Shown: positions 1,778 to 15,279 of the stretch, piece after piece
How the letters are laid out: each line of letters begins with the position of its first letter
Position numbering within the stretch: position 1 is the stretch's first letter
Origin: a virus
Strand: one strand, 5' to 3'
IMG/VR virus record: IMGVR_UViG_3300030380_004261
Coordinates: 1 to 22,281 of that record
Length of the DNA: 22,281 nucleotides
Notes under the pieces: generated by a model
Databases searched by the model: none
What the model was told of the DNA's origin: nothing
Seen by the model: the letters and a program-made list of their open reading frames with translations, nothing else
Program-made: the position numbers and the translations under genes

Positions 1778-3286
1778 CTAATAGTATTCCACTGGTCTTC
1801 TGTATTTTGGTTCGTCATCCCAGTCATCGCTTTCTGCTCGAACCCATCCACCTTGGCGAAATCTTAACAGAGCCTGTGTGGTACTGTCAACTAAGTCATC
1901 GTGATCGCCAGAGGGAAAAGAGGCACATTCCTCTATAACCTCATCAGCCCACCGTGTGGGTGGATACCAAACAGTGCCACTCGAAAACAAATCCGTTACG
2001 GCATTTACTCTGGCAATCTTATCGTTACCTCTGGTAGGTGTAAACTCCGTGACAGGTATACCCATAGCACGAAGCTCAAACATCAAAGGCGCACCTGATG
2101 CCTTTGCTTCAACAACCATCTGGTCTGGCTCCCATTCCATATATTTGTCATACGCTGCTCGTTTTAATTCTGGAAACTCCAGTTTTGCCTTGAACGAATC
2201 AAGCAGTATCAAGTGTGTCTTTTCTATCCCTGTAGTTTCATCAGGATGATAAAACACACCCCAAGTGGTACACGCACTATAGTCACTACGCTCTGTTTTC
2301 AGAAACGCTGTATCCCAAGACTGTATTATCGCCTCACAGGGGGGTGGGTTATTGCTATCCCACAATCTCCACCATTCTCGTTTTATTAACGCTCCCTCTT
2401 CGGATGTAGGGTTTTGCTGATACTGAGCGTTCCATTTGGCAACTGGCAATTCAGCTTTTAGACTTTCCAACTCCTCTAACTTCCAGAACTCTCCCCACAA
2501 TGCCTTTCCTGACGGCATGATCGCAGGCAACTCAATAACTTCCCAATCGTCAATCCCTGACTTGTTCTCCATGCTTTTTAGTATCTGACCTGTTAAATCT
2601 CTCTTAGCCCATCGTGTCATCACCAAGATAATCGCACCACCTGGTTGTAATCTCTGCCGTGGTCCTGAAGTATACCATTCGTACACCTTGTCATACACCT
2701 CTGGGTTATACTGCCCTAACTGTGCCTCCTGTTCCGAATGCGGATCATCAATCACCAAAACATCAGCACCCTTACCAGTTACAGCACCACCAACACCAAT
2801 AGCAAAGTAATCGCCACCCTTATTCGTACTCCACCGTCCTGCAGCCTTACTATCAGCCGATAAACTAATACCTTTGAATATCTTTTGATAATCTGGTGAC
2901 TGTATCAGGTTTCGCACCTTCCTACCAAAACCAACAGCTAACTCAGCCGTGTGTGCCGTCTGAATAATCTTTTTATCTGGGTATTGCCCAAGAAACCATG
3001 CAGGAAATAAGTAAGAGGCAAACTCCGACTTGGTGTGCCGTGGGGGCATATTAATGATCAATCTCTTCAATTCCCCTCGTGCCACCTTCTCAAATGCCTC
3101 CGCCATAATCTTGTGATGCGATCCACCAATAAATGCCGACCACATCATATGCACAAAAGGCAAGAAACCCTCCTTGGCACTCTCCCTGCCCTTGGCTTCT
3201 TCATACTTCTCCAGTAATTCCAATATCTCCCTCTTTTGATCCAGAGGAAGTAAATCAATCTTATCCTTGAATTGGGATAACTCCAT
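1778..3286 (-). CDS. terL: Terminase large subunit (ATPase-nuclease)
   Basis: Motor that docks on the portal, pumps DNA with ATP and cuts the concatemer. 502 residues, the usual size. N-terminal ATPase: a Walker A-like MPPRHTKSE at residues 80-88 and Walker B VLVIDDPHS at 176-184, followed by the coupling-type segment ILVMTRWAKRDLTG. C-terminal RNase H-like nuclease: QSWDTAF with Asp325, VEAKASG with Glu393, and GDHDDLVDS with Asp463/464/467, matching the TIGR01630-type C-domain. The ATG overlaps the stop of the HNH gene (TAATG), so the two are translationally coupled. All key residues are present and it appears intact. Confidence 0.97.
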   Translation of the reverse strand: MELSQFKDKIDLLPLDQKREILELLEKYEEAKGRESAKEGFLPFVHMMWSAFIGGSHHKIMAEAFEKVARGELKRLIINMPPRHTKSEFASYLFPAWFLGQYPDKKIIQTAHTAELAVGFGRKVRNLIQSPDYQKIFKGISLSADSKAAGRWSTNKGGDYFAIGVGGAVTGKGADVLVIDDPHSEQEAQLGQYNPEVYDKVYEWYTSGPRQRLQPGGAIILVMTRWAKRDLTGQILKSMENKSGIDDWEVIELPAIMPSGKALWGEFWKLEELESLKAELPVAKWNAQYQQNPTSEEGALIKREWWRLWDSNNPPPCEAIIQSWDTAFLKTERSDYSACTTWGVFYHPDETTGIEKTHLILLDSFKAKLEFPELKRAAYDKYMEWEPDQMVVEAKASGAPLMFELRAMGIPVTEFTPTRGNDKIARVNAVTDLFSSGTVWYPPTRWADEVIEECASFPSGDHDDLVDSTTQALLRFRQGGWVRAESDDWDDEPKYRRPVEYY

Positions 3287-3492
3287 TATTGCTTCTTTCG
3301 GTTTTTCTTTGCCGATACCACACGAAGATTCTTTTTCCTATTGTTTTTAGGATTGCCATCCTTGTGATCAATATGTTTCCCATCACCCTTCTTGACTTTC
3401 CCTTGGCGTATCGCTGCCCTACGATTCTTATTGCGTAAAGCCCTCTCCTTCTTCATTTTATCAGAGGAATGATATTTTTTGTATTCAGACAA
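3286..3492 (-). CDS. HNH-family protein next to terminase
   Basis: Small HNH protein whose motif GDGKHIDHKDGNPKNN, followed by LRVVSAKKNRKK, is the compact phage form with paired His and downstream Asn residues. HNH proteins beside terL are known to stimulate terminase cleavage at cos sites, so a packaging role is likelier than homing. I place the start at the TTG at 3492 (68 aa, beginning SEYKKYHSSDKM), preceded by AAAGGG. An upstream GTG at 3540 would add 16 residues unlike known homologues and would lie inside the palindrome array. The ATG at 3456 is another option. Its last base is shared with the TerL start. Confidence 0.82.
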   Translation of the reverse strand: MSEYKKYHSSDKMKKERALRNKNRRAAIRQGKVKKGDGKHIDHKDGNPKNNRKKNLRVVSAKKNRKKQ

Positions 3493-3509: not shown

Positions 3510-3562
3510 ATATGGTTAACCATATATCATGGTATACCACATACCATGATTAACCAAACATA
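3510..3562. promoter_or_regulatory. Tandem palindromic operator array, 17-bp period (locus 1)
   Basis: Three units begin at 3512, 3529 and 3546, exactly 17 bp apart: ATGGTTAACCAT, ATGGTATACCAC, ATGATTAACCAA. The first lies within a perfect 16-bp palindrome (3510-3525). The array sits just upstream of the HNH-TerL operon. A dimeric DNA-binding protein is the natural reader, either operator- or iteron-like. Function is inferred. Confidence 0.6.
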
Positions 3563-3581
3563 TTATGTAATAATATGTATT

Positions 3582-3617
3582 ATGGTATACCTTGAAAAGA
3601 AACATGGTATACCATGT
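3582..3617. promoter_or_regulatory. Two further ATGGTATACCAT palindromes between divergent genes
   Basis: ATGGTATACCTT at 3582-3593 and the perfect 16-bp palindrome ACATGGTATACCATGT at 3602-3617, 22 bp apart. The latter is identical to 14826-14841. A possible weak plus-strand promoter, TTGAAA (3592-3597) and TGTAAA (3615-3620) with a 17-bp spacer, would have the second palindrome in its spacer, which fits repression of the gene starting at 3639. Confidence 0.5.
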
Positions 3618-3638: not shown

Positions 3639-3869
3639 GTGGTAATTGAACCATTCTTAATGTGGAACCTCTTAATCACCTTAGTGATTGCACCACTGGC
3701 GTGGTACATTAAAACACAGCGTGACGAAATAAAACGTATCGATATACTCCTCAACAAAACCAGAGAGCAATACATGAACAAGGTTGAACACAGAGATGAT
3801 ATCAACCGATTGTTTGAACACCTATCCAGATTAGAAAACAAAATAGACACCTTATTAACGTCAAAGTGA
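3639..3869 (+). CDS. Small membrane-anchored coiled-coil protein
   Basis: 76 residues starting at GTG, with a good AAAGGAG 7 nt upstream. Residues about 5-22 (LMWNLLITLVIAPLAWYI) form one membrane segment. The remainder is a charged heptad-like helix (EIKRIDILLNKTREQ to SRLENKIDTLL), so the protein is probably anchored with a long coiled coil. This layout resembles XhlA-like or spanin-like lysis accessory proteins, but no signature proves it. It is the only plus-strand gene within the leftward packaging block and separates terS from the HNH-terL pair. The opposite-strand ORF here looks like a shadow. Confidence 0.75.
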   Translation: MVIEPFLMWNLLITLVIAPLAWYIKTQRDEIKRIDILLNKTREQYMNKVEHRDDINRLFEHLSRLENKIDTLLTSK

Positions 3870-3907
3870 TATTTGGCATTTTTTACCAAATTATTTGAGC
3901 AGATTAC

Positions 3908-3963
3908 TATATATATATGCGTGTATGTGTGTGCGTATACATGGGGGGTGGGGGTAGGTGGGG
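3908..3963. other. Alternating purine-pyrimidine run followed by G-rich tract
   Basis: From 3908 to 3943 every base alternates pyrimidine and purine (TA steps, then GT/GC steps) for 36 nt. A G-rich tract with runs of six, five and four G at about 3943-3963 follows at once. Such runs can adopt Z-DNA, and the G tract is quadruplex-like, although only three runs have three or more G. TTGGCAT (3873-3879) and its inverse ATGCCAA (3993-3999) flank it. No gene fits here. It lies next to terS, so a packaging or replication site is possible. Confidence 0.5.
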
Positions 3964-4000
3964 TCTATTTTTTATGGTTTTTAGGTGATTTAATGCCAAA

Positions 4001-4051: not shown

Positions 4052-4525
4052 TTATATGACTTTTAACTTTTCAAGTTTCTCTTTTAGCTTGTTTTCTAGG
4101 CTCTGAAGGTCTGAATCTGCTTCTTCAACTTCCACTTTGTCCACAAATAGTCCAATTGTTTTCCCAATTAAATGCAAACTCTGAACCCTTGCTGAGTCAC
4201 TTTCTGCGTTTTCTGCTTCGAGCCTTAGCCGTTCCAAAACGTAGGCTTCTAATCTTGCCCTCTTAGTTCTGATATCTTCAGCTTTATCTATGGTTAACGC
4301 TTTTATTCTTGCTACGATCTTGCTATTTGCCATTAAGCGACTCGCATTCTCGTGTATTGTCTTGGCTGCTTGATTTCTGCTGTAACCTGATTTTATGTAA
4401 GCTTCGTTCTGAGCCATGCCTTGACTGATATAATGGCAAAACTTCTCTTGCTTATCTGTTAACCCTGAAAGCCTATCTAAAACCACCAACTCAGGTTTAT
4501 TGTTTGATTCGTTTTTTTCTACCAT
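4052..4525 (-). CDS. terS: Terminase small subunit
   Basis: Recognises the packaging site and loads TerL. The core LTDKQEKFCHYISQGM, then NEAYIKSGYSRNQAAKTI, then ASRLMANSKIVARI matches the Terminase_2 (PF03592)-type N-terminal helix-turn-helix, followed by a long charged helical C-terminus (EEADSDLQSLENKLKEKLEKL) suited to oligomerisation. I choose the ATG at 4525 (157 aa) because an AAAAAAGGTG lies 6 nt before it. The longer start at 4564 adds 13 residues and has no Shine-Dalgarno. It is unusual in being separated from terL by a plus-strand gene and about 500 bp of structured DNA. Confidence 0.88.
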   Translation of the reverse strand: MVEKNESNNKPELVVLDRLSGLTDKQEKFCHYISQGMAQNEAYIKSGYSRNQAAKTIHENASRLMANSKIVARIKALTIDKAEDIRTKRARLEAYVLERLRLEAENAESDSARVQSLHLIGKTIGLFVDKVEVEEADSDLQSLENKLKEKLEKLKVI

Positions 4526-4625
4526 TTCAACACCTTTTTTCATGGTTTTTAATCTTTTTAACATAATTTATTAATTTTTTTTTATCAAGCTCATACACCT
4601 TTTTTTATTGGCTATTGGTGTACTT

Positions 4626-6462: not shown

Positions 6463-7401
6463 ATGGTTAAAAGACAGAAAAAAGATGTACACCAAGTAAT
6501 TACTAATCAAGTATTGGCAGCTATTGACTACGCCAAGGCTAACAATAAGAAGTTGAACTGGACTAAATCTTGGAAGTCAGGCAAAGCAATATCTAGACCT
6601 TTGCGATCAGTTCCATTTGGTACGCCTTACAAGGGTATCAATGCCTTGCTGCTTCTTATGTCATCAAGTATGAATGGTTTTGACTCCCCTTACTTCATGA
6701 CGTTTAAACAGGCTCAGGAATTAGGTGGCAAGGTTATTAAAGGTTCTAAAGGAACTATGGTTGTCTTCTATAAGCAGCTCACAAGAGAAGAAAAGACAAC
6801 CGACTCTAATGGTGTTGAAACTGTACAAGAAGTTGGCATTCCTATGCTTAGAACTTTTACAGTGTTTAATGCTTGCCAAGTTGAAGGCTTACCAGAAAAG
6901 TTTTTTCCAAGTAAGCAAGATGAAAAAGAACTAGAGCAAAATCAAGATAGCAAGATTGATTATATTGAAGAGTTCTTTAGCAACCAAGGTGCGAAGGAAT
7001 TTGAGAGTAATGGTGGCGCATTCTATAGACCTTCCGATGACTCAATACATATGCCTAAGTTCTCAAGGTTCTCAAGTTCTTCAGCAGCGTATTCAGTCAG
7101 GTCGCATGAATACTTACACTGGACAGGCTCAGATCATAGGCTCAAGCGCGGTTTAAGCGCATATGATAGACCTTCCTATGCTTTTGAAGAGTTAGTAGCC
7201 GAACTTGGTGCAGCCTTCTTGCTGTCCGATTTTGGACTACTACAAGAGCCAAGTGAAGACACTATCGCTTATCTTGATAGTTGGTCGAAGTGCCTGAAGG
7301 AAAACAAGAAAGCCATATTCAAGGCTTGCACCTTAGCAAGTCAAGGTGTGGACTTCATGCACGATCTAAACGAAAAGGCAAATACTAACAAGGCAGCTTA
7401 A
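6463..7401 (+). CDS. ArdC-like antirestriction protein (ssDNA-binding plus zincin)
   Basis: 312 residues with the two-part ArdC layout. The N-terminal about 145 residues resemble the DUF1738 ssDNA-binding domain (LNWTKSW, GTPYKGINALLL, YFMTFKQAQELGGKVIKGSKG, FNACQVEGLP). The C-terminus is a zinc metalloprotease-like domain with HEYLH at 215-219 and a downstream EELVAELGAAFL helix supplying the third ligand. ArdC of plasmids protects incoming DNA from restriction; here it probably counters host defence early in infection. RBS AAGGAAAAC. Its stop codon lies inside hairpin copy 2. Confidence 0.9.
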   Translation: MVKRQKKDVHQVITNQVLAAIDYAKANNKKLNWTKSWKSGKAISRPLRSVPFGTPYKGINALLLLMSSSMNGFDSPYFMTFKQAQELGGKVIKGSKGTMVVFYKQLTREEKTTDSNGVETVQEVGIPMLRTFTVFNACQVEGLPEKFFPSKQDEKELEQNQDSKIDYIEEFFSNQGAKEFESNGGAFYRPSDDSIHMPKFSRFSSSSAAYSVRSHEYLHWTGSDHRLKRGLSAYDRPSYAFEELVAELGAAFLLSDFGLLQEPSEDTIAYLDSWSKCLKENKKAIFKACTLASQGVDFMHDLNEKANTNKAA

Positions 7402-10618: not shown

Positions 10619-10841
10619 GAAAGATTTCACAGCCGAAACATTGTTTTGGCTGTGGCATAACAAATGTCCATTAAACAAATGGTCAGTTAAAACAGAAGAT
10701 GTAAACGATGATGGCACAAGGATTGTTCGTGTTGAATACGTTATTCCTAAAACTGAGGACTACGTTAAAGACATAAAGAAACAAGTCGATGACAAACTAC
10801 AAGCTATCATGAAAGGTGGGCATTTTTCTGATGATGGCTGA
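10605..10841 (+). CDS. Hypothetical protein (WLW-CP family)
   Basis: 78 residues. LFWLWHNKCPLNKW and a following strand pair (TRIVRVEYVIP) resemble the shorter product of 8314-8442. C-terminal charged helix. It overlaps the lysin gene by up to 11 nt if the lysin starts at 10831. RBS AAAGGAA inside the preceding gene. Confidence 0.7.
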   Translation: MKNIKKDFTAETLFWLWHNKCPLNKWSVKTEDVNDDGTRIVRVEYVIPKTEDYVKDIKKQVDDKLQAIMKGGHFSDDG

Positions 10842-11247
10842 AGCTCTGATGTGTCTTGCTCTTAACGTATATTTCGAAGCTAGGAGCGAGAACATGGCAT
10901 CACAAATGGCAGTATCGTTAGTTGTGATGAATAGAGTTGAAGACCATAGATTTCCTGACACAGTTTGTGGAGTCGTCAAACAAGGACTTAGATATAAGAA
11001 CGACAAAGTTGTGTTGGGGAAATGCCAGTTCAGTTGGTACTGTGATGGCAAGCCTGATAGACCTAAGAATAAACAGGCATGGTTGAAGGCAAAACAAGTA
11101 GCGTCAATAGTATTAGATGGCAGCATGGTTGATTTCACTGAGGGATCAACACACTACCATGCGTACTATGTCTATCCTTCGTGGCGTAAAACAATAACAA
11201 AAGTGGCAAGGATAGATAGCCACATATTTTATCGATGGGAGCAGTGA
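10831..11247 (+). CDS. SleB-type cell wall hydrolase (endolysin)
   Basis: 138 residues of the Hydrolase_2/SleB family, which cleaves peptidoglycan glycan strands. Recognised by LALNVYFEARSE with the probable catalytic Glu16, AVSLVVMNRV, FPDTVCGVV, CQFSWYCDG, AWLKAKQVA, THYHAYYVYPSW and the end RIDSHIFYRW. It lacks a signal peptide, so it needs a holin. Start set at the ATG at 10831 (ATG 10834 is equally possible), with AAAGGTGG upstream; the GTG at 10816 would add VGIFL-type residues and overlap that RBS. A one-TM gene follows immediately. Confidence 0.9.
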   Translation: MMAEALMCLALNVYFEARSENMASQMAVSLVVMNRVEDHRFPDTVCGVVKQGLRYKNDKVVLGKCQFSWYCDGKPDRPKNKQAWLKAKQVASIVLDGSMVDFTEGSTHYHAYYVYPSWRKTITKVARIDSHIFYRWEQ

Positions 11248-12968: not shown

Positions 12969-14747
12969 CTAAAAAGGCAAGTCATCGTCATCTTTATATG
13001 GCATTCTGATCTTTTTAGGTTCCACTACTGTAGGTTTGATAATCTTTGGTTCGACATATTCATTGTAATGGCTTGTGTCAGTATCAAAAGATAGCTCTGT
13101 TGAGCCTTGCTTACCTATCCAGTTAAAACGCATCTTCCATATTATTACTTGTGTAACATCATCTAAGTCTGGTCTTGGTCTGTGTACTGTCATTCCGCAG
13201 TCCGACTTACTAAACCATGCTGATGATCCTGATATATCGTATCCTTTTGGTGGTGGTACTTTACCAGAGCTATCACGCATCATCTTAGTTGGGTGAGCAA
13301 CAAACCAAACGTGAACACCATAAGACTGAGCAAACACTCTTAGCCTTGTTAACATATCAGAAATGTAATCTGTCTCTGACATATTGTTAGCTTTAGTTAT
13401 GTAGTTGTATGGATCAATAACCACACCACGAATACCATAACGCATCACGGATACTCGAAGTCTTTCGATAATACTATCAAGGCTAGTCAGGCTGCCATCA
13501 CGTTGATACAAGAAAGAGAAGTGTTCGGATACAAACTCTTTACCTGTTTCAAGTTCGTCTTGGCTCATTCTTGGCTTGTCACCTTCATAGAAAGGCTTGC
13601 CGATATACTTCGATATAAGTTTGGCTATATGCACCTTCGGTTCATTCTCGAAGCTACAAATGGAGAACTTCCAATCAAACTCTCTTGCCATGTTCATCAT
13701 GACGGAATCAATAAACTCAGACTTACCTGATGAGGGGTGTCCTGTAACAATAGTGAGCTGTCCTTCGACAACGCTATAGTATTCATCGACATTAGAATAT
13801 CCTGTGCTTTTTCCCTTACCAAATCCCTTGTCGTATATCTCATTCACTTCATCATAGAAGTCTGATGGGCTATACAAACCTGCCACTGGATAAGGCTGAG
13901 CATTATCGACAATCTTTTTAAGAACATCTTTACCATGCTTAACGATAACATCGTTGGCATCTTTACATTCCTCTGGATACTCTAACTTCCAACATTTATC
14001 TTTGCCAATACGTCTAGCCATTTCTTCAGCCATAGCTATACCTGCCGAATCATTATCAGTGGCTATAATGACCTTCTCTGCGTTCTCTATGATATCCTTG
14101 GCATTCCAGATAAAACGAAACTTATTATCGTCTGATGGATCAATACGACCATCTGTAACCTTCATGATAGCACCATGAGGCACTGAGCATACATTTTCTA
14201 TCGCTGCCTCGACAAAAGCGCAGCAGTCCATTTCACCTTCGCATATTATCAAAGGCTCTTCAGATTTTATGTTATCGATATTAAAGAAGGTTTTAGGTGA
14301 TCCATCACAAGCAAAACCTTTCTCGCTGATAGACCTAATTTTAGACGCATACTTGTGACCATTCGATTGATAAGGAAACGTAATACATTCGGTTCTTGAG
14401 CCTACACTTTGTATGTAATTGTGTGTTGTTTTTATGCCTAACTTCTCTGCTGTTTGTTCTGTTATTCCTCTTGATTTTAACCATTCCAAACCTTTATCAG
14501 ACAATGGTTGCACATCGTTTAACCTCACCAACTCCATACCGAATACCTCTCCTTTATTATCAAATCTTTTTGCACCTGAAGTGCCACAGTGATGACACAT
14601 ATAGACGAATTTATCTGCTGTAATATTAACAGATAATGTCTTTAAATTTTTCTTTTTTCTGTTTTGACAATCGACACTTGGGCAACGCAGTTTATACTGT
14701 CCAATACTATACCCATGTATCGTGTCGAGAATACTTTCTACGTTCAC
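12969..14747 (-). CDS. Twinkle-like primase-helicase
   Basis: Unwinds DNA and probably primes replication. 592 residues, T7 gp4 layout. Zinc-binding domain: Cys22, Cys27, Cys51, Cys54. TOPRIM: ICEGEMD with Glu170, ATDNDSAG with Asp231/Asp233, then KDANDVI. RecA-like helicase: Walker A GHPSSGKS (336-343), Walker B GVVIDPYN (441-448), and WFVAHP with His485. The C-terminus ends in KDDDDLPF, resembling the acidic tip of SSB. GTG start at 14747 with GAGGTG upstream. Promoter and palindrome array lie upstream; terminator downstream. All key motifs are intact. Confidence 0.96.
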   Translation of the reverse strand: MNVESILDTIHGYSIGQYKLRCPSVDCQNRKKKNLKTLSVNITADKFVYMCHHCGTSGAKRFDNKGEVFGMELVRLNDVQPLSDKGLEWLKSRGITEQTAEKLGIKTTHNYIQSVGSRTECITFPYQSNGHKYASKIRSISEKGFACDGSPKTFFNIDNIKSEEPLIICEGEMDCCAFVEAAIENVCSVPHGAIMKVTDGRIDPSDDNKFRFIWNAKDIIENAEKVIIATDNDSAGIAMAEEMARRIGKDKCWKLEYPEECKDANDVIVKHGKDVLKKIVDNAQPYPVAGLYSPSDFYDEVNEIYDKGFGKGKSTGYSNVDEYYSVVEGQLTIVTGHPSSGKSEFIDSVMMNMAREFDWKFSICSFENEPKVHIAKLISKYIGKPFYEGDKPRMSQDELETGKEFVSEHFSFLYQRDGSLTSLDSIIERLRVSVMRYGIRGVVIDPYNYITKANNMSETDYISDMLTRLRVFAQSYGVHVWFVAHPTKMMRDSSGKVPPPKGYDISGSSAWFSKSDCGMTVHRPRPDLDDVTQVIIWKMRFNWIGKQGSTELSFDTDTSHYNEYVEPKIIKPTVVEPKKIRMPYKDDDDLPF

Positions 14748-14775: not shown

Positions 14776-14804
14776 ACAATAGTAAAAAAAATTTTACTGG
14801 TCAA
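14776..14804 (-). promoter_or_regulatory. Leftward promoter for the primase-helicase
   Basis: On the minus strand: TTGACC (14804-14799), 17-bp spacer, TATTGT (14781-14776), about 29 nt before the GTG. The palindrome array lies just upstream of the -35, the usual place for activator sites. Confidence 0.55.
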
Positions 14805-14825: not shown

Positions 14826-14886
14826 ACATGGTATACCATGTTACATGATATACCTATTATAATGATATATTACTTGGTATACCATG
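14826..14886. promoter_or_regulatory. Tandem palindromic operator array, 17-bp period (locus 2)
   Basis: Units begin at 14828 (ATGGTATACCAT, inside the 16-bp palindrome ACATGGTATACCATGT), 14845 (ATGATATACCTA) and 14862 (ATGATATATTAC, degenerate), again 17 bp apart, plus TTGGTATACCAT at 14874-14885. It overlaps the end of the RusA gene. Same core and spacing as locus 1 at 3512-3562. Confidence 0.6.
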
Positions 14887-15279
14887 ACTATCAAATGGTG
14901 TTAGCCTTATGATAGCTCTAGGGTTTTCCTTGTCTAATCCCCAATAGATTGTTTTCTTTTTGACTTGCCTATCATTCTTGTACACATAATCCTGAAGGCA
15001 ATCCAAGATTAAACTCTCGTCTAAGTCTGGTCTTCTTGAAGCATAGTAGATCATGATTTCTATAGCTACATCACACTCTATTATTGGATCAAGTTGTGGA
15101 CATTGTTTTTTAAATGCACTGACATATGATAATGCCTTTTTAGATTTAATAGGTACTATCCTATTATGTATCTTAACGAGCTTTCTCTGATTAGCTTTAG
15201 ATGCAGGCTCTCCAAGTATCTCAAATTTTATATCAAAATTTTGTTCAACAAAATCTTGACCTTTGTTCAATAAATTCAT
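14857..15279 (-). CDS. rusA: RusA-family Holliday junction resolvase
   Basis: Cuts four-way junctions left by recombination or replication before packaging. 140 residues. ILGEPASKANQRKLVKI opens the fold; the metal site is SRRPDLDESLILDCLQ (Asp85, Asp87) and VYKNDRQVKKK (Asp103), the RusA Asp triad. The ATG at 15279 has GAGG 7 nt upstream, supporting a 16-residue N-terminal extension over typical members. That extension overlaps the promoter of the divergent exonuclease gene, and the C-terminal codons overlap the palindrome array. Confidence 0.9.
   Translation of the reverse strand: MNLLNKGQDFVEQNFDIKFEILGEPASKANQRKLVKIHNRIVPIKSKKALSYVSAFKKQCPQLDPIIECDVAIEIMIYYASRRPDLDESLILDCLQDYVYKNDRQVKKKTIYWGLDKENPRAIIRLTPFDSHGIPSNISL

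Follow-up and report, generated by a model that had tools for sequence, protein, structure and literature searches.

The DNA analyzed here, referred to as the window, is a virus record of 22,281 bases from a marine phage, and the overlapping relatives G029 and G003, whose sequences are near-identical, complete the species to a composite of ~57.7 kb. In this composite the gene of the large terminase subunit (terL) starts a long same-strand run of genes, with a giant gene at its end. The genes around the two regions of interest are the following:

12969-14747, minus strand: primase-helicase (Toprim + DnaB_C)
14857-15279, minus strand: RusA-like Holliday junction resolvase (rusA), whose 3′ end overlaps array A
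1778-3286, minus strand: terminase large subunit (terL)
4052-4564, minus strand: terminase small subunit (terS)
3286-3492, minus strand: small HNH protein, the first gene past array B, with a TTG start near 3492 inferred from relatives (MSEYRKYH)
3639-3869, plus strand: small gene divergent from array B, with a hydrophobic start and coiled-coil-like, homologous to a gene in L225, L227 and L228

Array A is located between rusA and the primase-helicase gene, and array B between the small plus-strand gene (3639-3869) and the HNH-terL operon. Since terL leads a same-strand run in the composite, array B heads, by position, the late operon (HNH, terL and structural genes). At the listed starts rusA (minus strand) overlaps an exonuclease gene (plus strand) at 15201-15279, and homology suggests later starts for both genes. 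In addition, two products were recognized in a plus-strand run with small genes, at 6463-7401 and 10816-11247: an ArdC-like antirestriction protein that contains a zincin domain, and a hydrolase of the cell wall (Hydrolase_2). No integrase, repressor or RNA polymerase was recognized in the ORFs examined of the window and of the composite, part of whose ORFs were scanned, and among these ORFs of the window species a sigma factor was not recognized either. The region gave no blastn match among named phages, and our literature search returned nothing on these arrays and no transcript data for this group.

The units of the two arrays, given without strand, and the promoter-like sequence of the primase-helicase gene are these:

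3512-3523: array B, unit ATGGTTAACCAT
3528-3541: array B, unit CATGGTATACCACA
3546-3557: array B, degenerate unit ATGATTAACCAA
3581-3594: array B, unit TATGGTATACCTTG, in the spacer of the minus-strand promoter-like sequence TTTTCA-17-TATTAT (3598-3570)
3603-3616: array B, perfect unit CATGGTATACCATG, just 5′ of the ribosome binding site of the plus-strand gene
14776-14804, minus strand: promoter-like TTGACC-17-TATTGT of the primase-helicase gene, 9/12 match
14827-14840: array A, unit 1, intergenic; the palindrome CATGGTATACCATG is perfect here and stands 22 nt upstream of the -35 box of the primase promoter
14845-14856: array A, unit 2, degenerate copy ATGATATACCTA with 3 mismatches, 17 bp from unit 1
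14862-14873: array A, claimed unit ATGATATATTAC, 4/12 positions mismatched
14873-14886: array A, outermost unit CTTGGTATACCATG, located in the 3′ end of rusA and translated there as G-I-P-S

The palindromes are real and far above chance. In the window, GGTATACC was the sole strongly clustered palindromic 8-mer, with 6 copies against 0.27 expected and 5 of the 6 in two clusters, and a search with TGGTATACCA at ≤2 mismatches yielded 30 matches against 9.6 ± 2.9 expected, a number reached by no shuffle. In the 57.7-kb composite, arrays A and B were the only GGTATACC-type clusters (3512-3616 and 14827-14886). The array A units at 14827-14840 and 14873-14886 match those at 3603-3616 (exactly), 3528-3541 and 3581-3594 of array B. 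The earlier note had described one palindrome in two clusters 11 kb apart, and both the motif matches and the clustering counts bear this out. The 17-bp pitch that it saw holds for 3512/3529/3546 and for 14828/14845, but not beyond: the starts in array B (3512, 3529, 3546, 3582 and 3604) give spacings of 17, 17, 36 and 22, array A has that one 17-bp pair, with the 14874 unit 29 bp from 14845, and the arrays of related phages are irregular, with spacings of 15, 17, 18, 29 and 33. The unit placed at 14862 is probably not a site, because it carries four mismatches and is not kept in L008/L009, where a 3-bp deletion between units strikes it. The sequence of the fourth copy, at 14874, is indeed present, but it lies inside the 3′ end of rusA; since IPS at the RusA C-terminus is also found in some lineages lacking a CTTGGTATACCATG-type motif, this copy may partly reflect a coding constraint.

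Just downstream of terS (3900-3990), the window carries a G-rich block (GGGGGGTGGGGGTAGGTGGGG) and TG/CA-rich sequence, which may be a cos/pac site or a G-quadruplex; in the other lineages that were read, terS likewise has a comparable C-rich/CA-rich block after it. In the G018 group (L218:14950-15200), strong inverted repeats of GC-rich sequence with a T run (GGTGGGG...CCCCCACCGTCATTTTTT) lie between array B and the first gene, just before the latter, and resemble a terminator or leader RNA element.

As for the promoters, the minus-strand match that had been proposed at 14804-14776 was found, and most relatives have a TTGAC-type box at the corresponding position, with a spacer of 16-18 nt. 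The distance from array A to the -35 box ranges from about 22 to 110 nt across lineages, which would fit poorly with an activator of fixed geometry and would leave modulation from upstream or a contact between A and B. In L225, L227 and L228 a TTGACA-type primase promoter is present and array A is absent; together with the variable distance, this argues against a strict activator at the primase gene. The overlap of the packaging-side array with a promoter region, also claimed previously, was upheld in so far as promoter-like sequence occurs there, at the head of the late operon, but the matches in array B (5 versus 3.5 ± 1.9 expected) are weak and near the chance number. In both promoter-like matches that overlap array B the palindrome is within the spacer. 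Promoter-like sequence that adjoins A and overlaps B favors the reading of the two as operator arrays for the late operon and the primase gene.

Among close relatives the arrays did not diverge freely, whereas free divergence is the outcome that the earlier note had named as contrary to its proposal. At 92-95% primase identity the main units of array A are kept, with unit 1 unchanged in all close relatives and unit 2 being a full GGTATACC in L008/L009, and the close relatives found also retain array B. In L136, array B has lost a 22-bp piece with one whole unit, yet the remaining palindrome is still 5 nt from TATTAT, a spacing that counts in favor of operators. The L136 sequence also looked like evidence of strong purifying selection on array B; however, one flank of the terL upstream region in L136 has diverged strongly and the other has hardly changed, so that recombination, possibly with a junction at the array, may explain the pattern, and we discarded this argument.

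Beyond what the earlier note had noticed, the comparison points to a family-wide pattern, in which the two places stay put while the sequence common to them is replaced as a pair. In distant relatives, with primases 44-59% and TerL proteins 71-79% identical, the primase-rusA-exo and terS-terL orders are kept and the palindromes have changed. Both A and B carry TGTACTATATAGTACA-type sites in G018, G019 and G020, TACTAGTTATAACTAGTA in G042, CTAATTATTAG in G044, AAGGGACT inverted repeats in G036 and ATCGAAAGC-type sites in G053; in G008 and G015 the sharing of motifs between A and B is weak. When the k-mer sharing between A and B, summed within genomes, was compared with that of re-paired genomes (200,000 permutations), the value observed with 8 genomes was reached by 7 permutations (9- and 10-mers) or 17 (8-mers) and that with 11 genomes by 0 or 1. 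To control for base composition, we also searched every contig for the 300-nt segment that has the most 9-mers in common with the array A of that contig, and for six of the eight lineages (the window, L218, L226, L229, L230 and L232) this segment lay no more than 500 nt 5′ of terL. The figures of both tests come from few (8) related lineages and from statistics that ignore the tree. Of 57 regions upstream of terL in viral contigs, 46 had repeats clustered more strongly than in any of 60 dinucleotide shuffles, and the motifs are many and diverse. Some of these clusters are simple repeats, tandem or AT-rich, and a small number are within coding sequence. The strongest cluster among the 57 loci, a dense tandem of TTAAATACTATTTAGACT-like units, was found in L214, ~220 nt upstream of terL.

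The pattern is not uniform in the group. L225, L227, L228 and G046 have an array B with a GGTATACC-type core and no visible array A, which suggests that B is the element common to the group and A an addition. In the stretches examined of 023Pt_psg01, HTVC027P, DSL-LC04 and HTVC023P, the clustering of palindromic 8-mers revealed no such paired arrays. HTVC027P is a distant relative (TerL 56% identical), and RNA-seq of this phage indicated that there is no phage RNA polymerase, that the host enzyme is used, and that the early genes are all of unknown function (PMC12753301). In HTVC023P, a repeat of 33-bp spacing with AAAATTTT is found just downstream of terS (L224:12494-12593).

The joint change of A and B is best explained by one sequence-specific factor. 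The new motifs at A and B of diverged relatives match within each genome, which makes the proposal that a single factor serves both arrays very likely and suggests that one DNA-binding protein reads them. Motif turnover between related phages would make a phage-encoded factor more likely than a host one. In the window species no binding protein was found, and the Pfam and PHROG scans gave no match of regulator type. An AlpA/HTH_17 protein is encoded in the recombination operon, at the end of exo-sak-ssb, of G008, G011, G018, G042 and G044, and its coordinates in G018, G042 and G044 are as follows:

L242:1098-1301: AlpA/HTH_17 protein
L243:15119-15376: AlpA/HTH_17 protein
L251:1002-1238: AlpA/HTH_17 protein

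G018 and G011 have the array motif in common and a similar putative recognition helix, and G008, G042 and G044 differ in both. This agreement between helix and motif is suggestive only, and is confounded by relatedness. Furthermore, the protein was undetected by HMM in the window species, G036 and G053, so it is no general answer as a universal binder. The product of a ~100-aa (102-aa) gene that lies between rusA and the primase gene, beside array A, in G008, G011, G018, G042, G044 and G046 (L218:2566-2874) was likewise rejected: the gene is absent from the window, and two members scanned gave no Pfam or PHROG match.

The alternatives to a common regulator differ in how much of the pattern they account for. 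If the arrays were two replication origins, or an origin plus a late origin or fork barrier, served by one initiator as in phage SPP1, replication would begin at A, next to the primase-helicase gene, and B, which is near the terminase genes, would arrest forks and thereby promote the formation of concatemers and their packaging. Iterated sites surround AT-rich centers at both places in several lineages, array A adjoins the primase-helicase and rusA genes, and SPP1 is a case of a lytic phage in which paired origin sites are reported (PMC3485210). A detrended GC-skew minimum, at B or within ~1.3 kb of it in five genomes, was striking, but it follows the coding strand: early-region genes on either strand have a similar coding-strand skew in most genomes, so that gene orientation explains the minimum, and no switch in strand composition attributable to replication was seen. 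We consequently rejected skew as a sign of an origin. Moreover, array A is absent in L225, L227, L228 and G046, the center of array B in G036 is a GC-rich hairpin instead of an AT-rich unwinding region, and no initiator was recognized, all of which make the two origins unlikely in our judgment. Still less probable is a host DNA-binding protein as the reader of the arrays, with motifs that differ as the hosts do. The base composition varies by lineage, so the hosts probably differ, and GGTATACC-type cores are found in lineages with rather different genes (the window species, L225, L227, L228 and G046). Against this, phages whose TerL proteins are 77-79% identical have very different motifs, and a host regulon with spaced GGTATACC was rejected, since the spaced pairs among the bacterial-genome matches listed are scattered over unrelated taxa, with no taxonomic pattern and in a number compatible with chance.

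Array B is located between terS and terL, beside a conserved G-rich block, and TerS diverges fast (28-41% identity where TerL has 77-79%), as might be expected if B were part of the packaging site, namely a cos/pac element bound by TerS, and A were a secondary copy or unrelated. We regard this as very improbable: the terS-side G-rich block, a better candidate, persists in lineages whose arrays have changed, and G008 and G018 differ in array motif although the putative recognition helices of their TerS proteins are almost the same, on which grounds TerS was rejected as the array binder, and the matching array at A is left unexplained. Finally, AT-rich sequence yields many short palindromes and the outermost unit of array A is partly coding, so that chance clustering in AT-rich intergenic DNA, aided by the coding constraint at the rusA end, has to be weighed too; the motif counts, the re-pairing permutations, the per-contig scans, in which random intergenic pairs did not show like statistics, and the 46 of 57 terL-upstream clusters above shuffles render it extremely unlikely.

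The reading that we favor, with a confidence slightly above even, is that A and B are operator arrays of one sequence-specific, probably dimeric and most likely phage-encoded DNA-binding protein, which would set or couple both modules. What we observed are sites that cluster, that occur at two places only and that diversify together across lineages; from these we infer the binding of a protein and its regulation of transcription, in one direction or the other. The protein would most likely occupy the late promoter region at array B, and may act on the sigma70-type primase promoter from upstream at array A, locally or through an A-B contact, so that the expression of the replication and the late/packaging modules would be set or coupled by one protein. 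Against the operator reading speak the lack of a regulator match in the window species, the near-chance number of promoter matches at B and the absence of A in several lineages. A broader version, which we advance tentatively and think rather doubtful, is that a group of marine phages without recognized lysogeny genes keeps its replication and late/packaging modules under a private two-site code, read by one fast-changing DNA-binding protein of an unrecognized kind, with arrays that are replaced as a pair between lineages and an immunity-like specificity as the outcome. In practical terms, the paired arrays offer a concrete handle on late-gene control, because they are a defined DNA bait for the regulator, and the change of the bait sequence between lineages is a natural experiment. 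If selection keeps re-writing the pair, the question would be why operator codes are private, e.g., whether they avoid interference during co-infection.

Several known systems resemble the paired arrays in part. In the lytic phage SPP1, G38P is reported to bind oriL and oriR, and there too two separated site clusters exist, one of them tied to the replication region, and replication is linked to packaging-ready DNA (PMC3485210). Here, in contrast, no initiator was recognized, the skew is explained by gene orientation, and A is missing in some lineages. In the satellite phage P4, ori and crr are bound by the alpha primase-helicase. The likeness consists of repeats at two distant places and the involvement of a primase-helicase gene; however, the primases studied here retain 44-59% identity across a complete change of motif, and the 592-aa primase-helicase showed no origin-binding domain. 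The temperate Cluster A mycobacteriophages have 13-bp asymmetric operators and stoperators throughout the genome (up to about 30), with a known repressor, and their site motif shifts with phage relatedness, each genome having its own version, as in the arrays (PMC6550527). The sites described here differ in being palindromes and in being confined to two places. In phage lambda, the paired operator regions OL and OR are served by one repressor. No repressor, cro or integrase was recognized here in the ORFs scanned, the clusters are in front of the primase gene and the late operon, and the spacing is irregular, but the arrays resemble OL and OR in that palindromic sites form small groups at two positions far apart in the genome, with promoters, here putative ones, overlapping or beside them and with sequences that vary between related phages.
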